Assembly (NCBI RefSeq): GCF_964275005.1
Contig: NC_092690.1
Coordinates: 8,956,336 to 9,020,335 of the forward strand
From: Diadema setosum
Taxonomy: Eukaryota > Echinodermata > Echinoidea > Diadematoida > Diadematidae
DNA length: 64,000 nucleotides
Reading direction: 5' to 3'
The first letter of the stretch is position 1. Every line of letters starts with the position of its first letter. The notes under the pieces were generated by a model, which saw only the letters and a program-made list of their open reading frames with translations, made no database searches and was not told where the DNA came from. The position numbers and the translations under genes were made by a program. This document shows, one piece after another, positions 12,294-31,382 of the stretch.

Positions 12294-13012
12294 ATGACTT
12301 CACTACCTGATGAGCAAGAAGGAAACAAACGCGAGACGGGGACAACAGACATCAATCTCACAAAGGACAGCCACAGAGGTGCTTGTTTGAAGGGAGGGAC
12401 AAAGAGCTTTAAGGAAAGTAACAAATATCAAACGCTTGATATCAACAATATGGTGAAAGCAATGCACAGTGCCATGGACGGGAAGAGCAGAGAATACTTC
12501 AATACTAGCGATTTTTGGATACTTGTTGCCAAAAAAAAATGAAGCATTCTCGTAGGACAGTTGGAAAACATTCCAAAGTTTTAAAAACAGTGTGGAATGA
12601 AAATCGCAGAAAAATTCAAGACAAGTTCGCAGAGTATGAACATACCCAAATTGATGCAGCAAAATGCAGCGACAAAACTGACAGTCCACTGTATTGTGCA
12701 TGCAGAACACCGTATGATTCCTCATTTAAGTATATCGAATGCATGATGTGCAAAGAATGGTATCACTATCATTGTGTAGGTATTCCCAAAACTTTAACGA
12801 CCGGAAAGAATGTTGAATTCATATGTGGATTAAATAATTGCAATGATGGTAAGAAAGTCTTTGAGCAGGAAGTTGGACAACGTAAACGTAAGGTAGATAC
12901 CAGTAAAACAGTCAACACCAGTAGTAAGCATCCCCTCAAGTCTTTCCGTCCGCACAAAAGAAAAGCAGAAATGAAAAAGGAGTGGCGAACAGTGACAAAA
13001 AGGGCAAAGTAA
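12294..13012 (+). CDS. PHD-finger protein of the repeated element, copy A
   Basis: From MTSLPDEQEGNK the frame runs through a basic middle region (SRRTVGKHSKVLK) into a full C4HC3 PHD finger. In the 165-codon frame opening at 12515 the ligands are Cys61, Cys63, Cys76, Cys79, His84, Cys87, Cys104 and Cys109, with the hallmark aromatic WYH before the fifth Cys. A Lys/Arg-rich tail (KRKVD, PHKRKAE) follows. PHD fingers bind histone H3 tails, so a chromatin-reading or targeting role is plausible. One frame change at an A run separates the first part from the PHD part in this copy; copy B2 reads through at the same place. Confidence 0.55.
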
Positions 13013-15543: not shown

Positions 15544-16487
15544 TACATACACCTGTGTAGAACTTCTCCAGTGTTACAGATTTGATCGAGAAGGAATATT
15601 TTATATCACAGACTTGATACACGATGACATTTCACCGAAACAGGTCTAGAGGAAGGACTGTTCAGTACAGGATAGCCAAGTTCTGACTGCAGTGTAGATC
15701 TGTGCTGCGTACGTACATTTGTAAATCAGGGAAAGGGCATCTGATGAATGATTTAAAAGAGGACAATGTCTTGTTGGAAAAGTCCTCTTCAGGTGAGTTC
15801 AACCACTAATACTTGCTAAACACTCTAGTTTTCCTTCTCTTTTCTATTACTTTTTTGAACGTAAAAAAAAAAAATTATTTAAATCCCTCTAGTAGCACAC
15901 TATCTTACTCATCAACAAATGCTTACAAAAGTGAAAGCACTTTAGGATAACACATTGTACAAGTGAGGTCAAAAATTGTCTTTCATCCACTCATCTCTTT
16001 GCTTTCGAGTCATAACCTTCCCATCAGTACCCAAATTATATGTTCATCTTCCCTTCCTATAATTCTTCTATACACAGGCAAAAACACAAATGGTATGTGT
16101 TTTCATTTTGCCCATGTATGTTCTTCAACAACAGGTCTATGGTGGGCCAGAGTCATTGATCTAGGGATGGTCTCCCGTCAGTGTGTTCATCCCACTACTG
16201 CTTCACCTCCGATGAGAAGGCTCGGTATCTCAGGGGAGAGTTATACCAACATATCACCCCAGAGGTCGCCCTTCAAGATCAGGCTACCGACTGGAGTGAA
16301 GAAGGACTGGACCGGGCCTCTGTGGTAGTCAAGGTGAACTGTGTGTCTTCCTGGAATAAGCTGGACTTTGTAAAGTATTTAGGGAATTAGAGCGCCATGA
16401 ACTGTTCAAGTTATACCGTGACTGCAAGAGTGGTCCTTTTTCTACCAACGGGTACAGTGCAGGTGAGTGTGATTTTAAAGATGACTT

Positions 16488-17130
16488 CACTACCTGATGA
16501 GCAAGAAGGAAACAAATATGAGACGGGGACCACGGACATCAATCTCATAAAGGACAGCCACAGCGGTGCTTGTTTGAAGGGAGGGACAAAGAGCTTTAAG
16601 GAAAGTAACAAATATCAGACGCTTGATATCAACAATATGGTGAAAGCAATGCACAGTGCCATGGACGGGAAGAGCAAAGAATACTTCAATACTAGAAATT
16701 TTTGGATACTTACTGCCAAAAAAATGAAGTATTCTCGTAGGACAGTTGGAAAGCATTCCAAAGTTTTAAAGAGAGTGTGGAATGAAAATCGCAGAAAAAT
16801 TCAAGACAAGTTCGCAGAGTATGAACATACCCAAATTAATGCAGCAAAACGCAGCGACAAAATTGACAGTCCACTGCATTGTGCATGCAGAACACCGTAT
16901 CAGTCCTCATTTCAGTATATCGAATGCATGATGTGCAAAGAACGGTATCACTATCATTGTGTAGGTATTTCCAAAACTTAAAAGACCGGAAAGAATGTCA
17001 AATTCATATGTGGATAAAATAATTGCAATAATGGTAAGAAAGTCTTTCAGCAGAAAGTTGGACAACGTAAGCGTAAGGTAGATACCAGTAAAACAATCAA
17101 CACCAGTAGTAAGCATCAGAAAGCTCCCAA
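16488..17130 (+). pseudogene. PHD-finger frame B1 (first unit of copy B)
   Basis: It corresponds to the copy A PHD protein, with the same basic region and first Cys ligands (CACRTPY, ECMMCKERYHYHC). The Trp before the conserved His is Arg here and the frame stops inside the finger, so it is not a working PHD protein. The continuing frame downstream gives a tail not found in the other copies. Confidence 0.5.
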
Positions 17131-17334
17131 AAGACCCTTTTCACTCAATGATGATCAAGGAAATCACAAGAAATCGAAAGTCAGTGTTCATCAAGAATCA
17201 CATCAGCAAGAAATACCATGTGCAGGGGAAACAACACTTGCAGTGATTCTAATGCCAAACTTTAACAATAACAGCTGGGAGGGACAAAGAGCTTTAAGGA
17301 AAGTAACAAATATCAGACGCTTGATATCAACAAC

Positions 17335-17895
17335 ATGGTGAAAGCAATGCACAGTGCCATGGACGGGAAGAGCAAAGAATACTTCAATACTAGCAATTTT
17401 TGGATACTTGTTGCCAAGAAAATGAAGTATTCTCGTAGGACAGTTGGAAAACGTTCCAAAGTTTTAAAAAGAGTGTGGAATGAAAATCGCACAAAAATTC
17501 AAGACAAGTTCGCAGAGTATGAACATACCCAAATTAATACAGCAAAACGCAGCAACAAAACTGACAGTTCACTGTATTGTGCATGCAGAACACCATATGA
17601 TTCCTCATTTAAGTATATCGAATGCATGATGTGCAAAGAATGGTATCACTATCATTGTGTAGGTATTCCCAAAACTTTAACGACCGGAAAGAATGTCGAA
17701 TTCATGCGTGGATTAAATAATTGCAATAATGGTAAGAAAGTCTTTGAGCAGGAAGTTGGACAACGTAAACGTAAGGTAGATACCAGTAAAACAGCCAACA
17801 CCAGTAGAAAGCATCCCCTCAAGTCTCTCCGTCCGCACAAAAGAAAAGCAGAAATGAAAAAGGAGCAGCAAACAGTGACACAAAGGGCAAAGTAA
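17335..17895 (+). CDS. PHD-finger frame B2 (second unit of copy B)
   Basis: An unbroken 186-codon frame from MVKAMHSAMDGKSKEY through the basic region and PHD finger to a Lys-rich end. It shows that the two halves split in copy A belong to one protein. The sixth zinc ligand is changed: FMRGLNNC here against FICGLNNC in copy A, which should weaken the second zinc site. Its start is the first ATG in the unit; the true protein probably begins further upstream. Confidence 0.55.
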   Translation: MVKAMHSAMDGKSKEYFNTSNFWILVAKKMKYSRRTVGKRSKVLKRVWNENRTKIQDKFAEYEHTQINTAKRSNKTDSSLYCACRTPYDSSFKYIECMMCKEWYHYHCVGIPKTLTTGKNVEFMRGLNNCNNGKKVFEQEVGQRKRKVDTSKTANTSRKHPLKSLRPHKRKAEMKKEQQTVTQRAK

Positions 17896-24880: not shown

Positions 24881-25298
24881 GATGACAACGATGATATAAT
24901 CTTACATTGTATGTTTCTTACTGCTCCTTCATATATATTTCAACTATTATTATAGTATATTAATGTGATGTTGGTCGGCAAAGCATGAAACCAATACCAA
25001 ACTTCATGAAACATCAGGTATGAAGAATCCAAGAAGATGTAGTCATTAATGAAGTCATTGGCATTCACATATATTCTTTGTATGTGGTAAATGCTTGTTT
25101 AATTATATGTAACTGGACCCCATGGAAGACCAGTGGTGCTATGGCAGCACCACTGAATATGGGCAATCCAGCTGTTTTAAACTGTCATTTTTTAGATGTT
25201 TTAAATGGAAATAAATCCCTACCTACCTACACCTACCACTCTGGATCTACAATCACGCCCCCCCCCCCCCCCCCTTCTTCGTTGTCCAATTCAATATA

Positions 25299-25348
25299 GA
25301 CTGTCTGGAAGATTGTTCTGGAAGATAACCAGGAAACTCCGTTTAAGG
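25299..25348 (+). pseudogene. Tigger-like transposase, short third exon
   Basis: TVWKIVLEDNQETPFK is followed by a GTGTCA donor. In the family this block directly precedes the DGxPGxxW motif, here found at 29706 in the next exon (DGMPGNKWLTGFMRRHP). A C run with an acceptor-like context lies just upstream. The exon match is short, so it rests mainly on order and spacing within the family. Confidence 0.5.
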
Positions 25349-25399
25349 TGTCACCATGCAGTTTACAGCAAAATAATCATTTTTGTGCATTTTCTTCTA

Positions 25400-26520
25400 T
25401 TTGGTGTATTTTAGCTTGTTGAAGTTGTTTTATATTTATTATGTGTACAATGACAAATGTATTAGTGAGCATGAAATCCGACACCCAATATTCTTCATTA
25501 CCATATAAAGGAATACATAAGAAATACTTTATTAAAGCCTCTCTCATCAACCACTCATCCAATCATGTTACAATTTGGTGTCAAGATAGCTCATGTATAT
25601 TAGACATGATTGAATGTTTTGGTTTTTGTGTTTTTAATTTCTTTTTTTTTGTATGATTTTTTTTTAAACCAATCACATTCAAGCTCACCTAATTATGTAT
25701 TCATTTGTTAATTAAGAAGAAATTACACACCCAGGAGATATAATTTTTCATTCAAACAACAGCTTACACATCAACAAAACATCACTTCAAGTTTGGGCTT
25801 AATCTATGCTTTCATTCTCACAAAATCTTTCACTGAAATATATCACCTCACATGAAATCACACTTCTGCTAAAACAAAGGAAATAAAAAGCTGTGCAATT
25901 TGCATTACCTCATCAATGCACACACACACATGCCAACACCTGGATAATGCAAAAAAAAAAGGCATAAATGCATTTTCTGATTGTGATACATATATTTACA
26001 GATAATATCAAATATTTACAATGTCAGATATAAAATTGGAATTGGAAATTAATTCATTAATATATAATTAAAAACTACAAAAACTACAATAAGGGTTGAA
26101 GGACCCAGCCACCAGCATTGTCTGCGTGCGTAGCTGGGCCTTCCTGCTACAGTATGTATAACTACATAGCTGCTGGGGTTGTGGGGATGTGGCAGTGTTA
26201 TGCTGGTCCCTGAAAGACAAGGGTAGTGTTAAGTAATGGAAGACAAAGGAATGAATTAATTGAACAATAGAATTAAAATAATAGAACTTTCTATAAATCA
26301 ATATATACATATACACACAGGAAAATAAACAATTTTTTTTTTTTTTTGCATGGCAACTGCAAATACGAATCAATCTTGTCTTGCTACTCTCAGTCTAATT
26401 CAAGAAATTAGAGAGATTAAAGACAAGTATGACAACTTTTCAATAATCTAACATTGTTCATAAACATCCTTCATAAATTACAAGTACAATTATATCAAAA
26501 TGTATAAATAATGAATTAAA
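25400..26520. other. Intron/flank between Tigger exon 3 and the Mutator-like gene
   Basis: This AT-rich stretch must hold one end of the Mutator-like element, but I could not find long terminal inverted repeats or a 9 bp target duplication by eye. No exon is seen. Confidence 0.3.
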
Positions 26521-26596
26521 GCGCGCAATGAGATGTCCATATCAGTGCAGGCAAAATATTGACCTGCAATCAAATGTGCATACTGAAATGGACTCT

Positions 26597-29267
26597 CTAT
26601 GAGAAGGCACCCATCGAATACACCCCACCCTCCCTCTCTTCATCCTCCTCATCCCTAGCCTTCCTAGCCTTCCTAAGTGCTTCCCTCCTTTTCTTTTCCT
26701 CTTCCCTAGCCCGTTTTTTAGCCCTTTTTTTCCTAAGATTATCCCTTCTTTGCGAAACTTCTGTGGCATGAGCTCCCAAACTGAGATTGAGTCTGTGGAA
26801 GACTCTCTCACGACTGGTTTGCGCGCCACAGTTGAACGCAAGGACTGCAAGATCTACTGCAGTGCGAACAACACGTGGGCCTCGCCACAGGTGTTTTGGA
26901 CACCGTTTCCAGATGAGAGCATGAAAGCTCTCATTCTGGTTCTGGGTCATGCCTGGGAGGCATCTCTCGAGGAGATCGGGCTTACTCAATCGTGAGAATG
27001 TTGGCAGGAGAAGGTCCAGAAACACGGGGTCTAAGTGATTCTCATTGTCCTTCTCTTTGCCTGATTTCTTGTACTCACACCATGTGTTCTCGCCATCGGG
27101 ACAATATTGATGACGTACATCAGGATCAGGCAGTTTGACTGAATGATACAAGATGGCCAATATTGCCCTTCGCATCTTCTCTACTGCCCTATCCCTAGCC
27201 TCCTCACTATCTAAAGCCCCCTTGTCTGCATGTTTGCGTATTGTACTTCTATATAATTTACATAGCCTACCAATTGATCCCGTGTCTGATGTCCCCCTTA
27301 GCCTACCCTTTGCACGCCCTACCCCCTTCCCATCTGCTAATTTGCCTTTATTTTGTTTCCTTACAGTGTCCAGTGCCTTGTACATTCTCTTACCTACATG
27401 CCCTACACAGTCTACCTTACGAACCTCATGACCCTCCCCATAAACATCCCTAACAGCATTGAATGAACTACTATCCCCATCACACAACATATACCTATAC
27501 CTTATCTTATGCTTACTAACTGACCTTTTCCACATTGTTACTGCCGCATCTACTTCCATTTTACCACTACTCCCCTTATGATTACGGAAACACCTATCCT
27601 CATGCCCAGCCCACCATGTTTTGTATTTATCTTTCGTCTTATCCCACCCCTTCCTAACTTCACACTCCTTACAAACCTTTGACAAAACTTCCCTATCTAT
27701 TACCTCCCCAGTATCTAGTGAAATTACTGCCCCCACCCCGTGATTCGATACGTGCCCTCTCCTGTGCCACGTTCCATCGTAAGACACTGCCACATCCACC
27801 ACATCATCGGCTGTCAGCCCGGGGTTGCCCTCCCTAGCCTTCTCCCTCAGTCGCTCAGCAGCCTCAGACATTTGGTCCTCGCAGGTCTGTGATAGGGAAA
27901 ATGAAAACAGTAAAAATACAATTTATCATACAGATAGATGTTTTCACATGACAAGAGAAAAATGTGACAAATAATGAAAAAATGAGAAAAAATACAATTT
28001 ATCCCTTTCAGTAAATAAGTCAACTAATCGATACTAATAATATGAGTTAAACTATTTCAAAGTTAACTTGTGTACATGTTATCAATTTCAATATCAATTA
28101 CTGCCAAAATTATAATTCACAACACTTCAAACAAACCTCATGTATGGATGTTGACAGAGAGGTCACATGTCGCATGTAGCTCCTACAGGTGACAGGTGGT
28201 GGTGTGCCCAGCAGAGCCGTCATGTCTTCCAGGCCAGCCCTTGCCAGTCCCACTTCCATGCCAGCCAGCGTTGCCCTCTTGTTGATCTCGGCAGACTTTC
28301 CTGCTCCCTCACATGCATTGGGTGAAGAGCAGAATTGGTGCTCCTCACCACAAACAGAGCATTGTAGGATGAGGGAGCAGTTCAGGCCATCACGCTGGCT
28401 GCCATCCTCGAGCGGAATGAGGTGTCCTGAAAATAAGAGAATATTTTGTTACCCTCTATACAATACAAATGATGGCTGATCAATTTATGCAAGGGAACAC
28501 TGAACTATGTGACAGAATTATCAGTTGTTCCATCTATTGACCAGTAAATAACATTCATAATCTTTTTTCTAATACACTAACTTAGAATTTATAATGTACA
28601 ATACCTATAATATAGTGGTACACCAACATGTCAACTCGCGACATGTTTCGTGGTCACACAATCCAACTTCAGTCTTCACCATATTCATCTGTGAAATGCT
28701 ACTTGACACTAGGACACTCAAAGGTGGAATTCAACACTATAACACTCTCATTCTAAGTCAAAAACACTCATAATTATTACCTGCCTCCTATCATTCTTGT
28801 ATGCTTTCAAATTCAAGATGAACTTACAAGTACTTACAGTTAGAATCTAGAGCCTTCTCTACATCTGTCACATATCACTTTCCCATAGAGAAGCCAGTCT
28901 AAATAAAACAACCATTCATCTCAATCTACTGTAAATATAAATAAGAATATACATCATTACTTGTATAAAAGTGTCATTTCACAAAGATCTCACCTCCATT
29001 GCAAACATGTGCTGCCTGAAGAGCATCCTTCAGCTGCTGGCCACTTATGAGGTAAAACCCATCCAATTCCCGACGCGAATTGCTATGGGTGGGACTACAG
29101 GCACTTGTATGTGGCAGTGCTGGCTTGTTGGCCTCCAGTTTCCTTTCGGAGGCTGTTGGAGCTCCTTCTTCTTTCTCCTCCTCAAGCTTCCTTTTTTTCA
29201 CCTCATAGGAGGGCACTCCGTGGAAACCTTTGCGTTTTTTGACATATCCCTGCCGTTTTCGGGGCAT
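26597..29267 (-). CDS. Mutator-like (MuDR superfamily) transposase, three exons, apparently complete
   Basis: Exon 1 (29267-28994) starts MPRKRQGYVKKRKGF and ends G|GTGAGA. Exon 2 (28426-28137) follows TTTTCAG, carries CSVCGEEHQFC and NKRATLAGMEVGLARAGLE, and ends GAG|GTTTGT. Exon 3 (27886-26597) follows CTATCACAG and runs to the stop. The joined frame is 1854 bp, 617 aa, with no interruption. The DDE residues expected for this transposase domain are present: Asp in VSYDGTWHRRGH (~225), Asp in LCDGDSSSF (~324-326) and Glu in NQNESFH (~507), with a DCVGHVGKRM helix between. A Cys/His cluster (KVCKEC, HEDRCFRNH) follows the first Asp. The C-terminus is strongly basic. It probably catalyses cut-and-paste transposition in the nucleus. 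It lies antisense within an intron of the Tigger relic. Weak point: the GTTTGT donor. Confidence 0.85.
28137..28426 (-). other. Exon 2 of the Mutator-like transposase
   Basis: 96 full codons. It contains a CxxC plus Cys-rich motif (LQCSVCGEEHQFC) that may bind zinc, and the EINKRATLAGMEVGLA and PPPVTCRSY blocks that open the Mutator transposase domain. Confidence 0.75.
28994..29267 (-). other. Exon 1 of the Mutator-like transposase (start region)
   Basis: It encodes a Lys/Arg-rich N-terminus (MPRKRQGYVKKRK) suited to nuclear import or DNA contact and ends at HVCNG plus one base before GTGAGA. The start was chosen because it is the first ATG after in-frame stops and the basic opening is typical of this family. 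Confidence 0.7.
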
Positions 29268-29705
29268 TTTGCTACAGAAAGTGCGTGTACTGGTGCTACT
29301 GTTTACACAGGCTGAGTAGGGCTAGAACCATGTGTGACCTCTCTTCTGTGTCAGGGTCTGACACTAGAGGGCAGCATGCCACATTTAAGATCATGGGCTC
29401 ATTTTGCTGAGCTCACTGTGCCCTTCAAAATGATGCCTCATTTCATTATTTTTTTTCAAAAAATGGTGATTTTTTGGTATGTTGAAAAATGATAAATTAT
29501 TTGCTGGAAAATAGCATGCAAGGTCATTAAATACCTATGTAATTATGCAATTTGAACTTGATTTTGAGGCATTTATTGTTGAGATACAACAATACAATTA
29601 CAGATATTCATTTTTTAAATATCCATGAATCAAATGGACTTAAAATAAAAAAATCAAAATTTTTCAAGTATTTTGACCATTTATTGTGCATTTCCCCCCT
29701 TAAAG

Positions 29706-30500
29706 ATGGGATGCCGGGAAATAAATGGCTCACAGGTTTCATGAGAAGACATCCAGAGCTGTCAGAGAGGAAGTCAGAGCTCCTCGGCGGAGAGAGGGCA
29801 ATCGTCACCTCTGAAAAGATTGACAAGTTGCATCTACACTGACCTTCACGTATACCTAGAGCAAGAAGGACACCTATCAACCTTGTCATTCCCAGATTGC
29901 ATCTTCAACCATGATGAAACAGGATTTGCTTTGTGCGGAAGGATGTGCCGTGTGCTTGCTAGTAAAGGCAGCCACACTCAGTGAGTGCTGTTGGCTCCAG
30001 CGACAAGAAACAAGTAAGAGTTCTTGCAACCATCTCGGCATCTGGTAACATTCTGCCCCCAACTATTGTTCTCGCAGGGAAGCGGTTTAGTAAGAACCCC
30101 CTGCAAGATGGACCAAAGGGAGCCTTCCTCGGGCGGAGCAAAAACGGCTGGATGAACAGCGAAGTTTTCTACAAATACATGGCAAACAAGTTTCCTCCCA
30201 TGGCTGGCTAAGCATAATATCCCAAAACCTGTGTTGCTGTTGGCTGATGGGCACAGAAGCCATGTTGCCTACCACATGGGGCAGCTGTGCAACGAAGCTG
30301 AAGTTGAGTTCTTCCCCTTGCCGTCACATGCATCGCATGTCTTTCAACCATGCGATGTCTCATTCTTCAAGCCGCTGAAGTCAGCATGGGCACGAGCTGA
30401 GCGGCAAGTGGTGTCAAGAGCACGAAGGATCTAGTGTCACAAAGTACACATTCGCGAATGCCATCCGCGGCCCAAGGGAGGAAGTCACGAAAAGGAAGGA
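29706..30500 (+). pseudogene. Tigger-like transposase, DDE domain
   Basis: After an acceptor at 29704-29705 the sequence reads GNKWLTGFMRRHPELSERK, then DCIFNHDETGFALCG (first Asp), VSAVGSSDKKQVRVLATISA, GKRFSKNPLQDGPKGAFLGR, LLLADGHRSHVAYHMG (second Asp), ASHVFQPCDVSFFKPLKSAW (third Asp) and SVTKYTFANAI. This is the whole DDE_1 catalytic domain with all three acids, but it needs several frame changes to read, so it is a pseudogene. The family cuts and pastes at TA. Confidence 0.8.
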
Positions 30501-30730
30501 CATGGTTAAAGAAAGTGTCAGTCTGTTTAAAAACTTTGCAAGCCTGGGAGAAGAAAGAGAGAGGTGCTCTCGCATTCGAGTCAGTTACAGTAGTGTAACA
30601 CCCCCCCCCCCTTCTACCATCCATCCAGCCCTGACTAATCACTAACAGTGGGAGATCATGAGCTGAGAACATTTGTCCCGAGTTTGAGAGTGCCTTCATT
30701 CGCGTTCCTGGGAGGAAGTCACGAAAAGGA
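30475..30730 (+). repeat. Retroelement leader fragment (copy 2) between 23 bp direct repeats
   Basis: The sequence GGGAGGAAGTCACGAAAAGG(AAG) occurs at about 30476-30498 and again at about 30709-30731. Between the copies lies a fragment matching the leader repeat at 14494-14700 (TTTAAAAACTTTGCAAGCCT, CACCATCCATCCAG... as separate blocks). The insert interrupts the C-terminal part of the Tigger transposase. A 23 bp flanking duplication is too long for a usual LTR integration, so a template switch or repair event is likelier. Confidence 0.6.
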
Positions 30731-31382
30731 AGAGCAAGAAGGTAAGAAAGGCTTTCAGGGCAACAGGTTTCTTCCTGTTCTCCAGAGAATTCGCAAGGGA
30801 GAAGCTCATCTTATCGCCAGTACTTGACGGTGAGTCTGGTTATGTTGGAAGAGCATCAAATGCTCCCCCCCCCAAGTCCCTGCCCCTACCCCCACCCCCG
30901 CCCCCACCACAGGGCCCGACTCATCAGGTAACGCTTGCCCTTCGACCTCAAGAAATCAGGGAACCTCCCTCACACTAGACAAGCACCTGAGGTACCCAGT
31001 CATTGATAGGCTGAAGCAAGGAAAGAAGACGGGAGGACGGGAGGATCTCCAGAAATACATTAGCAGCGACGCCTACCTCTAGTAGGCGTCGGAGAAGTGG
31101 GAGGCTAAGGAAAGAGTAGAAAGGAAGAGAAAGCGGACTGAGGAGTGGGAGGCGAAGGCAGCGGCAAAGGAGGGAGGTAAAAGAAAGGAAAAGAAGAAGA
31201 ACATCGAAGAAATCGATGAAAATGTGTGCCCAGAATGTGCCGTCTAGTAAGTTGACGACTCTGAAGAGTGGGTAGGTTGTTCCAACTGTGAAAGGTGGTT
31301 TCACGTCATGTGCTGTGGCATCCTCGAAGGAATGACAGATGAAGAAATAGAGGCGATCAACTTCAAGTGTCACTATTGTTGA
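30715..31382 (+). pseudogene. Tigger-like transposase, C-terminal region with PHD finger
   Basis: The frame resumes VTKRKSKKVRKAFRATGFF and, past a proline/C-rich patch (30866-30910), a Lys/Glu-rich coiled segment (about 31085-31200) leads to a PHD finger. NVCPECAV, then EEWVGCSNCERWFHVMCCG and NFKCHYC supply the C4HC3 ligands. The stop is at 31380-31382. Such zinc fingers close many invertebrate pogo-like transposases. In-frame stops between the first and second Cys pairs show decay. Confidence 0.65.

Follow-up and report, generated by a model that had tools for sequence, protein, structure and literature searches.

The window, that is, the whole stretch of 64,000 nucleotides of Diadema setosum DNA that was analysed, carries on its minus strand a three-exon transposase gene. 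The gene lies inside a 4353-bp element, which is bounded by TTAA on both sides and interrupts a pogo-like transposase gene. The features are listed in window coordinates.

25237-25342, plus strand: left flank, belonging to the interrupted pogo-like transposase gene (extent taken from the alignment with the paralogue L039)
25343-25346, no strand: TTAA target-site duplication, left (3' side of the element); a single TTAA stands in the empty paralogous site L039
25347-29699, minus strand: element of 4353 bp, very probably a complete Kolobok-type transposon; 5' end GGGGGGAAATGCAC..., 3' end GGTGTCACCATGCAG... (each read inward)
26597-27886, minus strand: transposase exon 3, with D225, the CCHC finger C260-C263-H283-C287, D324/D326, the CxxH motif C348-H351, the finger H447-C450-C458, E507, a basic C-terminus and the stop
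27887-28136, minus strand: intron 2, 250 bp, phase 0, GTTTGT...ATCACAG
28137-28426, minus strand: transposase exon 2, with the Cys-rich stretch CSVC...FCSSPNAC (aa 114-130)
28427-28993, minus strand: intron 1, 567 bp, phase 1, GTGAGA...TTTTCAG
28994-29267, minus strand: transposase exon 1, covering aa 1-91 plus base 1 of codon 92, with a basic N-terminus; matched by tblastn relatives
29700-29703, no strand: TTAA target-site duplication, right (5' side of the element)
29704-30504, plus strand: right flank, decayed pogo-like transposase gene continued, with a DDE_1 piece at 30156-30434 (E 1.2e-10; extent taken from the L039 alignment)

Gene model and motifs of the transposase

Splicing of the three minus-strand exons (29267-26597) gave 1854 nt including the stop, encoding 617 amino acids with no internal stop codon. 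The preliminary description had reported such an uninterrupted three-exon frame with one weak GTTTGT donor, D, D and E positions, a Cys-rich motif and basic ends. The frame was reproduced, the weak donor was found at intron 2, and the residues (D225, D324 or D326, and E507), the Cys-rich motif and the basic N- and C-termini were all recovered.

The introns were compared with those of relatives elsewhere in the genome. Intron 2 has the same position, phase (0) and GT-AG borders in the four relatives read at both sites (L007, L017, L019 and L024), which are not four independent cases because L019 is close to L017. In L012 the intron 2 donor was read and an open frame runs across the acceptor position. 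The acceptor of intron 1 is in phase 1 in 6/6 relatives read (L007, L012, L017, L019, L024 and L027). Its donor was read in two of them, agreeing in L007 and being out of phase in L027, a relic whose PF20700 match carries a stop and in which no GT donor of intron 2 stands at the corresponding position. Since the window protein is 55-58% identical to those of L007, L012 and L017, chance sharing of the introns is unlikely. The three-exon model is confirmed at the level of sequence and supported by the shared introns; the transcript would be spliced accordingly in vivo. The more distant L001 and L002, 33% identical to the window protein, have a single intronless open frame of 634 amino acids.

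In a Pfam search, PF20700 ("Mutator-like transposase") was the sole family above its cut-off, matching aa 93-458 with an E value of 8.4e-65. The second and last line at E<=1 was ATR N-HEAT (E 0.17, under its cut-off). PF10551, PF03108, PF04434 and PF00872 were sought in the window protein and none was listed at E<=1, a listing from which the HMMER filters discard most matches above about 0.1. The piggyBac transposase domain likewise gave no Pfam match above cut-off in this protein.

The putative catalytic residues, assigned from the motif pattern, are D225, D324 (or D326) and E507. Between the second D and E lies the CxxH motif (C348-H351), and between CxxH and E a zinc finger with three recognised ligands (H447-C450-C458), identical in 5/5 aligned proteins; the CCHC finger follows the first D. 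All 13 motif residues examined are identical across the five aligned proteins (window, L007, L012, L017 and L001). L004 was excluded from this alignment, as L004 and L005 align poorly, and the relic L003 is in neither of the two protein alignments made. An RNase-H fold would be expected of the transposase; single-sequence AlphaFold prediction of exon 3 alone was poor (pLDDT 42), and a sequence search of solved structures returned two matches (E 0.76 and 0.97), both to Fermitin and taken as chance. No relatives came up when viral and prokaryotic contigs were scanned; some peptide patterns in the first two of these scans were of low complexity.

Ends of the element and the interrupted pogo-like gene

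The ends were located from the ends of relatives together with the interrupted pogo-like frame. The window junctions, found under the guidance of the relatives' ends, read CCCCCC|TTAA at 29700 and TTAA|GGTGTCACC at 25343. Both ends start with GG when read inward, which makes the element GG...CC and fits the Kolobok pattern 5'-RR/YY-3'. The terminal inverted repeat is minimal, with 4/16 of the first positions matching by hand count.

When the two flanks were joined with one TTAA, a continuous HTH-like frame (...DNQETPFKDGMPGNKWLTGFMRRHPELSERKSE...) ran across the join, upstream of the DDE_1 piece. A genome search with the 301 joined bases returned three places, namely each of the window flanks and a locus on C7 spanning the join. 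This C7 paralogue (L039, G000:C7 near 20116973) aligns with the joined flanks over 911 nt at 78% identity, has one TTAA and is gapless at the junction; it is a paralogous empty site and not the same locus in another individual. Since L039 is continuous with a single TTAA, the boundaries and the TTAA duplication are set independently of the weak inverted repeat. The element is inserted at a TTAA in a pogo-like transposase gene, itself a transposon relic.

Resemblance of the right flank to L039 extends, by eye, to a PHD-like region near 31210-31382. L039 itself has a long open pogo-like (DDE_1) frame that ends in a PHD-like Cys/His region (by eye), and window 29704-31382 is its decayed relative. 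Elsewhere in the window, three similar open reading frames (12509-13012, 16391-16981 and 17272-17895) encode a PHD-finger-like protein, with a Pfam PHD match in two of the three; they are apparently repeated copies of one unit.

Target duplications of MULEs, the Mutator-like elements, are 8-11 bp long. The preliminary description had proposed a search for inverted repeats and a 9 bp target duplication in 3 kb to each side of the gene; the duplication is instead the 4-bp TTAA fixed by the empty paralogous site, and the inverted repeat is minimal, the ends matching at 4/16 positions. A blind scan for TTAA-flanked end pairs with 11/16 matching positions found none. At 9/14 it gave 3 pairs, fewer than the 12 of the direct-orientation control, and missed the true pair, whose ends have so little in common. 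Blind inverted-repeat scans that required a duplication of TTAA, of 3-5 bp or of 8-11 bp returned low-complexity or chance pairs. The single printed candidate with an 8-bp duplication had A/T-rich, low-complexity arms and was rejected; a TGAA-flanked pair (23777/29626) was dropped, as the empty site places the ends elsewhere.

Small palindrome-like terminal motifs, not long inverted repeats, were seen at the ends of the three-exon families: GGTGTCACC at window 25347-25355, and GGGG...CCCC or GG...CC motifs at 3908-3922 of L032 and 89-102 of L012.

Relatives, copy number and age

With the gene region as DNA query, the search returned the region itself and one relic on C2, the latter as two pieces 95% and 85% identical with the middle missing; the remaining 17 of the 20 matches were 63-72% identical, save one 70-bp stretch at 83%. 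These repeat counts are lower bounds. The DNA search skips very common words, so that an absent match is not proof of absence. The 436-bp 5' part and the 1254-bp 3' part of the window element had no other genomic match in the DNA search, so its ends are known from this locus only. The window element is the only intact copy found, and its nearest relative is one internally deleted relic. Around the relic L029, a search for TTAA ends covered 900 bp upstream, where one TTAA followed by AA was seen, and 1800 bp downstream, where none of the right form was found. The preliminary description had proposed a count of near-identical copies; having no intact sibling and one relic, the element belongs neither to an expanding family nor to the picture of one survivor among many broken copies.

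The window gene and the relic were compared over exon 1 and that portion of exon 3 which aligns. They show 28 synonymous differences over 229 sites and 39 non-synonymous ones over 798 (dS 0.13, dN 0.051, ratio 0.38); one change creates a stop, and two gaps of a single base are present. Under an assumed indel-to-substitution ratio of 0.15, the chance that the frame stays unbroken falls from about 0.18 when neutral divergence is 0.5% to about 0.001 when it is 2%, with about 7 disabling changes then expected in the frame. Because an intact frame has so low a chance at 2% divergence, the insertion is probably young, that is, recent relative to neutral decay. The same figures bear on the reading that this is an old, immobile insertion spared disabling mutations by luck. 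That reading draws on the lack of sibling copies and on a nearest relative that is a relic at dS about 0.13, yet it would need an outcome with a probability of about 0.001 at 2% divergence (0.18 at 0.5%), and we regard it as unlikely.

A second reading makes the gene a single-copy host gene domesticated from a transposase. It agrees with the gene being the only intact copy found, having no near-identical siblings, and with the dN/dS of 0.38 to the nearest relic; moreover, passages of PMC6004289 describe single-copy Kolobok-derived genes in Xenopus that were considered host genes, the triad being kept in five of them. The same passages report, however, that the triad is lost in 19 of the 24 Xenopus proteins of conserved subfamilies, and the window element keeps its triad along with both ends and the TTAA duplication. 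A ratio of 0.38 between two transposon lineages is also explained by long-term constraint on a working transposase. Ends, target duplication and triad are all kept and no observation points to a host role; domestication is very unlikely. The preliminary description had offered recent activity or selection for a host function; of the two, recent activity fares better, recent mobility being probable, and for the host function no positive evidence was found.

Profile searches gave at least 48 PF20700 matches in the genome and at least 27 matches to PF10551 (MULE), none of the latter at a place listed for PF20700. Ends were mapped in three further families (A, B and C), all matching PF20700. In family A (L001/L002), about 3.2 kb is shared at 99.8%, TTAA stands at both ends in 2/2 loci and the terminal inverted repeat is clear (GGCAAGCCTGTACAATT / GGCAACCCTGTACAATT); the repeats of B and C are weak. 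Family B (L012-L016, on G000:C1, C4, C5, C10 and C22) has five copies, the other four matching L012 at 99.88-100% identity across about 4.2 kb, with TTAA|GGGGATATCACACC at the left end in 5/5 loci and GTAGCACC|TTAA at the right end in the 2/2 fetched. Such near-identity indicates that a Kolobok-type element moved recently in this genome, and the five copies have the look of a recent burst. Family C (L007/L008 with L032/L033) has TTAA|GGGGGGATCAGCCCC and CACCCACCC|TTAA in 2/2 loci. By hand measurement the elements are about 4.4 kb (B) and about 3.8 kb (C) long, against 4353 bp for the window element. TTAA flanks were thus present in 4/4 PF20700 families with mapped ends (window, A, B and C), a count that covers these four mapped families among all PF20700 matches.

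Between L017 and L018, a stretch of at least about 15.8 kb is 99.5-99.98% identical. Neither could be given a TTAA end, so the count of mapped families excludes them. The surroundings of this PF20700 gene (L041/L034/L017/L036 on G000:C24 against L042/L035/L018/L037 on G000:C4) may reflect either a large element or a segmental duplication of recent date. Within about 16 kb at G000:C4:16694312-16710371, several PF20700 matches are clustered, the majority either short or interrupted by stops.

The stretches fetched at three PF10551 loci showed no MULE ends that could serve as a positive control for a MULE-type duplication. The PF10551 loci L047, L048 and L049 adjoin tandem arrays that repeat about every 34 bp, judged from hit offsets; these arrays resemble the tandem-repeat ends of Rehavkus-type MULEs.

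Kolobok membership and the meaning of PF20700

Taken together, 25347-29699 is very probably a complete Kolobok-superfamily DNA transposon with a single three-exon gene for a 617-aa DDE transposase, lying as a probably young insertion in a pogo-like relic, and would be a new member of the superfamily. The assignment is made by description, from the TTAA, the ends and the motifs as given in passages of PMC9587614 (Kojima and Bao 2022). These passages describe Kolobok elements as having TTAA duplications and 5'-RR...YY-3' ends, the latter a Kolobok trait unlike piggyBac. A zinc finger between CxxH and E is ascribed there to almost all Kolobok and said to be absent from MuDR, P and hAT, and a second, CCHC finger is ascribed to the lineages KolobokP, KolobokE, KolobokD and Kolobok5. 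With these CCHC lineages the window element has in common the TTAA, the RR...YY ends, the DDE triad, CxxH, the zinc finger before E and the CCHC finger after the first D. It differs in showing no sign of the nucleases described for KolobokP, E and D, since its three further open reading frames (those overlapping exons in other frames left out) gave no Pfam match to suggest a second protein. Neither the long terminal direct repeats nor the His-Me nuclease described for KolobokP was found; self-comparison of the element revealed no terminal direct repeats and just one weak 31-bp internal pair. The Xenopus Kolobok elements (XKol), compared by description from parts of PMC6004289, share the TTAA duplications and DDE transposases, and their short imperfect inverted repeats may have a counterpart in the minimal one here; those in its Table 5 are 6.8-13.9 kb long, against 4.35 kb here, and have transposases with H2CH, C2CH and PWP motifs.

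The name of the matched family would make this a Mutator/MuDR element (MULE), as the preliminary description had called its gene. The gene does encode an intact transposase with a direct PF20700 match, and a DDE triad and C/DxxH are common to MuDR and Kolobok (the latter according to passages of PMC9587614); membership of Mutator/MuDR does not follow. The target duplication is TTAA, set by the empty paralogous site, and the mapped PF20700 elements sit between TTAA although the name implies MuDR. The PF10551 match and the long inverted repeats of MULEs are absent here, none of the four MULE-related profiles sought was listed at E<=1, and the PF10551 matches in the genome (at least 27) fall at no listed PF20700 place. 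By the description in PMC9587614, MuDR lacks the zinc finger that lies between catalytic residues two and three. A Mutator/MuDR origin is therefore hardly credible, and the Kolobok assignment is retained.

By analogy with the Kolobok family, the transposase would bind the ends of the element, excise it and reinsert it at a TTAA, which would be duplicated in the process. Constraint on the transposase before the insertion (dN/dS 0.38 to the nearest relic) may have delivered an intact frame to this site, and the frame would most likely be unbroken because the insertion is young relative to decay. The element is probably autonomous and may still be mobile.

A search of the open-access literature found no paper holding both "Mutator-like transposase" and "Kolobok" and none holding "PF20700"; some papers do hold "Kolobok" and "Mutator". 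What had been a vague intact Mutator-like gene is now an element that can be tested, its limits being known exactly and an empty target site being at hand for comparison. In this genome the name "Mutator" for PF20700 appears misleading, as the profile would mark TTAA-type, Kolobok-like elements, and anyone searching the surroundings of such genes for long inverted repeats and duplications of 9 bp would miss the ends of the element. We lean towards the wider view that PF20700 may be Kolobok as a whole, its name misdirecting annotation, and that within it the three-exon lineage (window, B and C) may move with almost no inverted repeat, just GG/CC beside TTAA.
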